Assembly: GCA_001887945.1 (NCBI GenBank)
Contig: LDOQ01000212.1
Location: forward strand, 213,428-277,427
DNA length: 64,000 nt
Direction: 5' to 3'
DNA from: Spraguea lophii
Taxonomy: Eukaryota; Microsporidia; Spragueidae
Made by a program: the position numbers and the translations under genes. Positions within the stretch are counted from its first letter, which is position 1. Each line of letters opens with the position of its first letter. Under the pieces are notes generated by a model, which had not been told where the DNA came from, did no database searches, and saw only the letters and a list, made by a program, of their open reading frames with translations. Below are positions 53,405 through 55,793 of this stretch, piece by piece.

Positions 53405-53709
53405 TTAAAAGAGTATGATGAAAGATTTTTATATTCTATATTTTATTTTAATATTTATATTTTGTGATAAAAGTTATAAGTATTTTATTTTATTTATAAA
53501 GAAATATTTTTTATGAACAAAAAATTATAAGTATTGATTTGTAGGTATAATATATAAATAATGTATAAATAATAAAATATCGATAAAAATAAGTATATTA
53601 GTATCTATTTAATAATACTAATAATAATAATAATATCTTTATTCAATTATAAATAAATATTTTGATTTTTATAAAATATTTTTTTGCTTATAAATATTTT
53701 TTTATTTTA

Positions 53710-53713
53710 CCCC
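53710..53713 (+). promoter_or_regulatory. CCCC initiation-type box before the snRNA candidate
   Basis: TTTTACCCCTTAA is the same phrase that stands before protein starts in this window (e.g. TTACCC at Ran, ATACCCC at Ste24, ACACCC at TBCA), yet no ATG follows within 40 bases. Its position one base before the predicted RNA 5' end suggests that the box sets the transcription start. Confidence 0.55.
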
Positions 53714-53714
53714 T

Positions 53715-53864
53715 TAACTTACCTTGTGAAGAAGAACCATTATATATGGAGTATCTTCAGATATGTTGTTTCGCCTTGTATTTTTGCGTTCCTCAACAAA
53801 TCTTGACTACATTGTAGATCATTCACTGAATTTTTTGTATTGAGAAGATTTTTATCTTCTTTTT
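53715..53864 (+). ncRNA. candidate U1 spliceosomal snRNA
   Basis: Reading from 53715, bases 3-10 are ACUUACCU, the 5' splice-site recognition sequence of U1. Stem-loop 1 pairs GAAGA (53731-35) with UCUUC (53754-58) and CCAU with AUGG. Stem-loop 2 pairs AGAU (53759-62) with AUCU (53800-03), UGUUG with CAACA, and CGC with GCG; its loop CUUGUAUUUUU resembles the U1A-binding AUUGCAC loop. Stem-loop 3 is UGACUAC/GUAG-A-UCA (53804-53821). An Sm site AAUUUUUUG (53829-37) and a 7-bp terminal hairpin (53843-60) followed by T's complete it. The canonical loop of stem-loop 1 (U1-70K site) is absent. A U5-like reading of GCCUUGUAU (53773-53781) is the main alternative. I found the structure by eye; it is not model-tested. 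Confidence 0.6.
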
Positions 53865-55793
53865 AATATAAAATAAAACTCAATGATGAAAAAAGCGTTT
53901 GTCTTACAATTGAAGAAAACAAAAGCTACCGATTATATTTCTGAGAGTAAAAAAATAATTTAAATAAAAATATATATATTTGATAATAATCCTTTAAACA
54001 TTTCTTATAATTTAACTATAATTATTTTTGTTTGTAATAATTTTAAATACTATTCATATTTTATATTTTTTAATTAAAGAATACGGTAGAAATAATTAGG
54101 TTTTATTATTTTTTTAGTTAAAAAAAGCAGTAGAAATAATTGGTTCTGATTTTAAGTAAGAAGGAATATTAGATATAAAGAATATAAATGTTGAGTAGAT
54201 TTATCATCAAATGATGGTTAAAAAAGAAATATATTAAAGTATAACATATTCTTTTTTATTTTATATTACATACATAACATAGATCAATAATTCACAAAAC
54301 CTTGTAATGTATTTGTATAATTAACTCTGTTATGTATATGTATTAATCTCACCTTGTCTTATATTCTAAGTTATTAAGAATTATATATTGTATAATCATC
54401 ATTATTTAGGTTTTGATAAAATTTTAATTTGCTTCTTCGCGTAGTATTAATATGGATTTTATAACCATACCAGACATCATTGTTTTGATTTAACAGTGTG
54501 ATATTTACATAAAATATATCAAATTACTTTACTGAACTTTCATTTACTCAACTCATCTCTAGTATCTTGTTTTAAAATATAGATATAACATTTTAATATT
54601 TCAGTTTTGACATTTACTATCTCATAATTACTGAACCAACATAAAATCAAAAATATTAATTTTATTTAATGAAAATATGATTATCCTTTAACCATACAAT
54701 TTATTTCATAATATAATATTTTATGATATTTTTTTAACATTTATTTTATTTCTATAACGTTACAATATTTATATATATGATTTCTTTTATAAAATTATTA
54801 TATAGAAGTATTACCATTTATTAAAACTTTTTTAAAGGAAACTGAAAAATAAATAAAATTATTTTTTTTAATAAAAGATAATATAAATTACTTTAAAGTT
54901 ATTGTACAAAAAAAATATCAACCAGATTTTACAACAGTTGTTGAGAACTATGATACCTAGGTTCTTTTAATAAATAAACAATAAGATGACTTTGAAAATA
55001 AGATTGTAAATGTAATAAAACGAGAGTTGATTGAAAATTGTTTATTTAGAAGGTTATAACATTATGTAAAAAATAATTATAAATAAAGATAAATATTATC
55101 CTATATTTAAAATTGTGTTACAAATAATTTTAATGTTTATTTTATTTCATAGAATTTTAAAGATGTCAAAATATGAAAGTTTCGACATAAAGAAAATAAA
55201 GTTATTTATAAATAAATTAAAATAAATACAAACTATAAGTAATATTAATTGTAATAAAATATAAATAGTAAAATTAATAGTAATAAAAAGTCATTAACCT
55301 ATATTTTATAATTGTTTGATGTTTTAAAATATGTTTTACTTTGAATTAAAGATTTAAATTTTATTTTTAGTAAATTGTAAATTTTCCTAAAATGTTTCAA
55401 ATGAATTTTCAGGTAACACGTAAAAATATCTATTTAAAATTTATCATTTCGTATGTTATGCATATAATCAATATATATAAAAATTTTATACATAAATTTC
55501 CCTAAATGAAAAAATATTATATTTCAAGGAAAATTTATATTAGAATTTTAATTTAATGGAATCATTCATATTCGAATTTTAATTTAGTGTTTTTAATTTA
55601 ATGGATCATTTAATTAAACAAAAAATATTTATTCAATATATCTATATAACACAGTAAAATATAAAAATATTACAAATATTATATTTTTATGCCTTTCTAA
55701 GATATTTCTAATTTTTCACCCCAAATTGGAATTATTAAAGAAAAAGGAGGGAAATCTCCTTTATATATTAAATATTGTGATTTATGCAAAAAT
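53865..55793. other. intergenic, about 1.9 kb, with one repeat copy, otherwise nothing
   Basis: A duplication (GGTAGAAATAATTAGGTT near 54085 and GCAGTAGAAATAATTGGTT near 54130) is followed by a minus-strand SINE-like copy at 54290-54490 (listed separately). From 54500 to 55793 the DNA is AT-rich without gene or RNA evidence that I can support. Confidence 0.5.
54290..54490 (-). repeat. SINE-like repeat, body (minus orientation)
   Basis: On the minus strand, CCATATTAATACTACGCGAA is followed by AACTTAGAATATAAGACAAG and GTGAGATTAATACATATACA. These are the same three blocks, in the same order, as in the body of the 56505 copy. Neither head nor 3' tail is present. Confidence 0.7.

Follow-up and report, generated by a model that had tools for sequence, protein, structure and literature searches.

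A very probable U1 snRNA gene in the microsporidian Spraguea lophii, preceded by a TTTACCC(C) box common to its spliceosomal RNA genes

Positions 53715 to about 53862 on the forward strand of the window, the whole 64,000-nucleotide stretch of DNA analysed here, constitute with high probability the one gene for U1 snRNA in Spraguea lophii. U1 is the small RNA that marks intron starts, and S. lophii is a microsporidian parasite of fish. The gene and its parts are as follows.

53705..53713, + strand: TTTTACCCC box directly upstream of U1, of the TTTACCC(C) type common to U1, U2, U4, U5 and U6.
53715..53864, + strand: very probable U1 snRNA of about 148-150 nt, its exact ends inferred (cmscan match to RF00003 over 53715-53862, and fold).
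53717..53724, + strand: ACUUACCU, predicted to pair with 5' splice sites, within an 11-nt single-stranded 5' end (sequence and fold).
53726..53730, + strand: 5' strand of helix H, GUGAA (fold).
53731..53758, + strand: stem-loop 1, with a UAUAU loop replacing the U1-70K loop (fold and Rfam alignment).
53759..53803, + strand: stem-loop 2, with a CUUGUAUUUUU loop where the U1A loop (AUUGCAC) belongs (fold and Rfam alignment).
53804..53821, + strand: stem-loop 3 (fold).
53822..53826, + strand: 3' strand of helix H, UUCAC (fold).
53829..53837, + strand: Sm site AAUUUUUUG, AATTTTTTG in DNA (sequence, Rfam alignment and genome pattern).
53842..53861, + strand: stem-loop 4, of 8 bp with a UUUU loop (fold).

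A preliminary description of this DNA had reported a CCCC box at the 5' end of the locus and, arranged as in U1, a 5' motif, three stem-loops, an Sm site and a terminal hairpin. The box is present at 53710-53713, and the layout is reproduced by the sequence together with the minimum-energy fold. ACTTACCT occupies 53717-53724, which would be bases 3-10 of an RNA starting at 53715. Numbered from that base, the fold leaves bases 1-11 unpaired, pairs 12-16 with 108-112 as helix H, forms stem-loops at 17-44, 45-89 and 90-107, keeps the Sm site free and closes with an 8-bp hairpin at 128-147. Fold and Rfam alignment together predict a four-way junction in which helix H encloses stem-loops 1-3, and in the Rfam U1 model helix H likewise begins at position 12. 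The GC fraction of the candidate is 0.30, against 0.10 across the 300 bases preceding the box, and no ATG-started ORF of at least 80 aa overlaps it.

Scanned alone, as 161 bases, the candidate aligns with positions 1-166 of the 166 in the RF00003 model with a score of 26.8 bits (E 2e-5 across 4227 families), and the runner-up family reaches E 2.1 in the same scan. The score is far under the Rfam gathering cut-off of 69.5 bits, which is a curation threshold and no biological feature. If E-values scale linearly, arithmetic converts E 2e-5 to about 1.5e-4 for U1 alone genome-wide. The match is visible in the 161-nt scan only: it is unlisted at E 10 in a 2.2-kb Rfam scan around the locus, a whole-genome U1 model search scored 23 candidates with none at E 10, and a gathering-threshold Rfam scan of the window gave no matches. 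Pre-filters and thresholds are probably what caused the wider scans to miss it, and the locus illustrates how whole-genome Rfam scans can overlook a probable U1. Neither of two controls of the same length, another AACTTACC site from the window and the U5 gene itself, matched the U1 model at E 10. Beyond this genome, one scan each of the genome_contigs and viral_contigs collections for the box-U1-Sm pattern returned no microsporidian match. The sole match in genome_contigs comes from a Nitrosopumilus MAG (L083:5328-5450) and is probably due to chance; viral_contigs gave none.

Seven introns of 24-30 nt, backed by reading frame, were obtained from pattern searches and frame checks, and Pfam identifies their spliced products as SEC61-alpha/SecY, L37e, S17e, S27e, L5e, S24e and L37ae. 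They came from a start-codon pattern and a TAATTT pattern; GUAAGU and the UAAUUU...YAG end were thus fixed by the search, and position +7 was free. That position is U in six of the seven (L5 being the exception), compared with 38 of 118 background GTAAGT sites, a set drawn from overlapping loci that includes some of the seven introns. Eight of the full set of 10 pattern matches have U at +7; three of the 10 (L063, L064 and L069, with U, G and U at +7) were dropped for want of reading-frame support. At base 2 the candidate carries A in place of the consensus U, so that a U at intron position +7 would pair with it. Six of the seven sites are calculated to bind the candidate 5' end more stably than that of human U1, with a margin of just 0.3 kcal/mol for SEC61, and L5 binds it less stably. 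A TAAC-branch intron pattern gave 106 matches, and of the 30 retrieved as loci, none of the 29 read on both strands combined a box, an ATG and a frame across the site. In a four-RRM gene of the poly(A)-binding type, the published intron is not evident in the fetched 5' end.

In the S. lophii genome paper, six of its eight introns were found to be retained in transcripts, including those of S17, S24 and L5, and the paper's gene count places S27 among them as well (PMC3749934). Substrates for U1 therefore exist, but several, at least three of the seven introns among them, seem to be rarely spliced. The genes carrying the Sec61-alpha, L37e and L37ae introns (L065, L066 and L072) are unnamed in the splicing section of that paper, as far as its text was available (PMC3749934).

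The other spliceosomal RNAs each have their own locus elsewhere in the genome. U2 (67.2 bits), U5 (44 bits) and U6 (67.6 bits) score above their cut-offs, and U4 (38 bits) falls below its cut-off of 46. All five snRNA genes, U1 included, carry TTTACCC(C) at, or no more than six bases from, the 5' end as Rfam aligns it. Besides the box directly upstream of U1, TTTTTTACCCC overlaps the Rfam start of U2 by two bases, TTTTTTACCC stands directly before the 5' end of U4, TTTTACCC six bases before that of U5 and TTTACCCC one base before that of U6. Because all five are boxed, the box tracks RNA 5' ends, which supports the earlier proposal that it marks transcription initiation and not translation starts only.

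Two further observations concern these RNAs themselves. Loop I, the most conserved part of U5, reads GAUUUUUCC in the S. lophii gene (G000:C28:27483-27594), three changes away from the Rfam consensus GCCUUUUAC. At the 3' end of U6 (G000:C39), GCCAUGAC and GUCAUGGC can pair into a hairpin with UUUU after it; a 3'-end hairpin of that kind is unusual for U6.

TTTACCC occurs eight times in 128 kb, the window counted on both strands. TTTTACCC is not over-represented in the window (four occurrences against 2.7 expected), and of the four, three closely precede an ATG and the fourth precedes the candidate. Among the 28 first ATGs of ORFs of at least 150 aa, 11 have WCCC within the 18 bases upstream, as against 55 of 2254 ATGs overall, and the box is missing from the one tRNA gene found in the sequence examined. 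The short CCC signal with which U1 starts recurs at the other spliceosomal RNAs and at a sizeable share of the protein genes. RACE data from Encephalitozoon cuniculi describe 5'UTRs of less than 7 nt and a CCC-like motif just upstream of mRNA 5' ends (PMC2803860), so that CCC as an initiation mark was already known for mRNAs. For snRNA genes we found no printed statement of a CCC box in the literature covered, a range outside which Belkorchia 2017, whose title mentions transcription, falls.

Downstream of the genes, an AAATAAA motif occurs within about 35 bases after U1 (window 53865-53880), U2, U5 and U6. It is perhaps a shared 3'-end signal resembling the mRNA poly(A) signal, in DNA that is AT-rich. 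About 15 bases after U1, at 53878-53949 (+), lies a box C/D snoRNA candidate with a C box (AUGAUGA), a D box (CUGA), an ACUC/GAGU end stem and a C'-like UGAAGA; it scores under all Rfam cut-offs. No CCCC box accompanies this candidate, so it may be processed from a joint U1-snoRNA transcript.

Individual elements of the locus are not rare, and one may ask whether chance placed them side by side in AT-rich DNA. AACTTACC has two occurrences in the window where 1.4 are expected, the counts for TTTTACCC (four found, 2.7 expected) are equally ordinary, and U1-like folds arise in about 1-2% of sequences. Dinucleotide shuffling of the 105-base core reproduced the U1 architecture by minimum energy in 119 of 5000 cases, 11 of them at the observed energy or lower, and 33 of 2556 105-mers tiled from the window have it as well. 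The fold of 53715-53864 has an energy of -29.7 kcal/mol (z -2.37, with 2 of 200 shuffles as good); with the terminal hairpin removed (53715-53828), z is -1.59 and 12 of 200 shuffles are as good, so the predicted junction by itself is nothing exceptional in stability. Chance is nevertheless a most improbable explanation. The full-length U1 model match at E 2e-5 speaks against it, as do the GC peak adjoining a flank of 10% GC and an initiator box common to the candidate and four undisputed snRNA genes. The pattern is also unique in the genome: ACTTACCT-N(90-120)-AATTTTTTG matches once in 5.27 Mb, at the candidate, and its reversed control does not match at all. Of the 108 ACTTAC sites examined, two show the U1 architecture, namely the candidate (-22.1 kcal/mol) and one that is far weaker (-9.8 kcal/mol).

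A different identity would be that of U5 or another Sm-class RNA, since the Sm site AAUUUUUUG looks like that of U5 and CGCCUUGUAU is similar to loop I of U5. The preliminary description had proposed comparing the locus with the Rfam U1 and U5 models: U1 matched end to end, and the U5 model finds no match on the candidate at E 10. A separate U5 gene, above cut-off and aligned over the entire U5 model, lies at G000:C28:27483-27594, and the GCCUUGUAU stretch of the candidate is part of stem-loop 2 and does not cap a long stem I. On the absent U5 match and the U5 gene at another locus we reject U5 identity, and the whole alternative, U5 or an Sm-class RNA other than U1, is most improbable. The low U1 score, and an assembly of 73 contigs that may be incomplete, would also suit a dead or silent U1 copy with the working gene in unassembled sequence. 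We consider this very unlikely: the locus retains its 5' end, the four stems, the Sm site and the box, the 5' end fits the splice sites, and no second U1 copy was found in the assembly. The full-length Rfam match, the separate U5 gene, the genome-unique pattern and the complementarity to the organism's own 5' splice sites together uphold the U1 identity first suggested from the sequence.

Proteins that could accompany this U1 are encoded as well. One is a zf-U1 protein (43.3 bits) that shows 100% identity to a protein annotated in Spraguea lophii 42_110 as "U1 small nuclear ribonucleoprotein". This identity assigns the genome to S. lophii and not to Nosema or Vairimorpha, the relatives suggested in the preliminary description. 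In the PDB, the zf-U1 protein matches ZMAT5 (E 0.00034) slightly better than U1-C (E 0.0013). For a 138-aa protein from contig C11, the PDB gives 49 matches at E 0.01; the 31 at ranks 2-32 carry the name U1A or U2B'', and the top-ranked one is an RRM protein without a specific name. By sequence resemblance, the C11 protein is a candidate U1A/U2B'' homologue and the zf-U1 protein a candidate U1-C-like protein.

The U1-70K loop that is usual, though not universal, in stem-loop 1 is GAUCANGAAG. In the candidate that loop reads UAUAU, bearing out the earlier remark that the U1-70K loop is missing. The U1A loop, which U1 RNAs do not universally have either, is only partly kept, with CUUGUAU in stem-loop 2 at the model positions of AUUGCAC. 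An RRM search gave 27 matches in about 18 ORFs, and no U1-70K was seen in the 13 that were read (12 fetched stretches and one window ORF, some possibly without their 5' ends). The U1-70K N-terminal domain is absent from the eight of these 13 that were scanned by Pfam. U1-70K has likely been lost; we grade the loss no higher because five RRM ORFs (at C25, C72:118936, C6, C1:166009 and C8) fell outside the reading.

These observations suggest how the particle may be built and act. Transcription of U1 would start one or two bases past the TTTTACCCC initiator, and the single-stranded 5' end UUAACUUACCUU would recognise 5' splice sites by pairing with GGUAAGUU. An Sm ring may bind AAUUUUUUG, U1-C and a U1A/U2B''-type protein would probably complete the particle, and the contact of U1-70K on stem-loop 1 would be lost. 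Taken together, U1, the U1-C-like and U1A/U2B''-like candidates and the fitting introns argue that U1 is still the starting point for the reduced spliceosome of microsporidia.

The box may have a wider meaning. One TTTACCC(C) initiator could serve protein genes and the five spliceosomal RNA genes, U6 too, merging the mRNA, snRNA and U6 promoter classes, with U1 having co-evolved with its few introns (base 2 A with +7 U) while losing the U1-70K arm. We put this combined proposal forward tentatively, and it could quite well be wrong. In practice, the box offers a simple handle for the 5' ends of non-coding RNAs in the S. lophii genome, and its presence at U6 makes a change of U6 promoter class a testable question.

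The preliminary description had also held that microsporidian U1 has been hard to find. As of 2013, according to Grisdale 2013, E. cuniculi U1 was unidentified, and the authors considered whether splicing might proceed with an incomplete U1 complex (PMC3629993). It has since been annotated: a later paper, on MicroAnnot, reports annotation by synteny-driven BLASTN almost 15 years after the genome, citing Belkorchia 2017 (PMC10815200). We found no S. lophii U1 in print within a partial coverage of the literature, and Belkorchia 2017 may well list one; the S. lophii genome paper does not use "snRNA" anywhere in its main text (PMC3749934). A microsporidian U1 as such is already known, and S. lophii adds one with a reduced stem-loop 1.

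The S. lophii RNA resembles the Rfam RF00003 U1 in that ACUUACCU spans bases 3-10 and helix H begins at base 12, and in its three stem-loops, Sm site and stem-loop 4. It differs in its length (about 148 nt against 166 model positions), in the absence of the U1-70K loop, in a changed U1A loop and in having A for U at base 2. With the E. cuniculi U1 it has in common that both are microsporidian U1 RNAs (PMC10815200). In its CCC signal it matches the C run described for microsporidia in PMC2803860, with the difference that in S. lophii the run stands at all five snRNA 5' ends, where a start codon is absent. Its reduced stem-loop 1 is comparable to that of the Guillardia theta nucleomorph U1, which is likewise reduced, carries ACUUAC fitting GUAAGU introns and has no apparent U1-70K site (PMC6461891). 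The two RNAs part ways at two other landmarks: the nucleomorph U1 lacks stem-loop 4 and retains a recognisable U1A site, whereas the S. lophii U1 retains stem-loop 4 and has an altered U1A site (PMC6461891).
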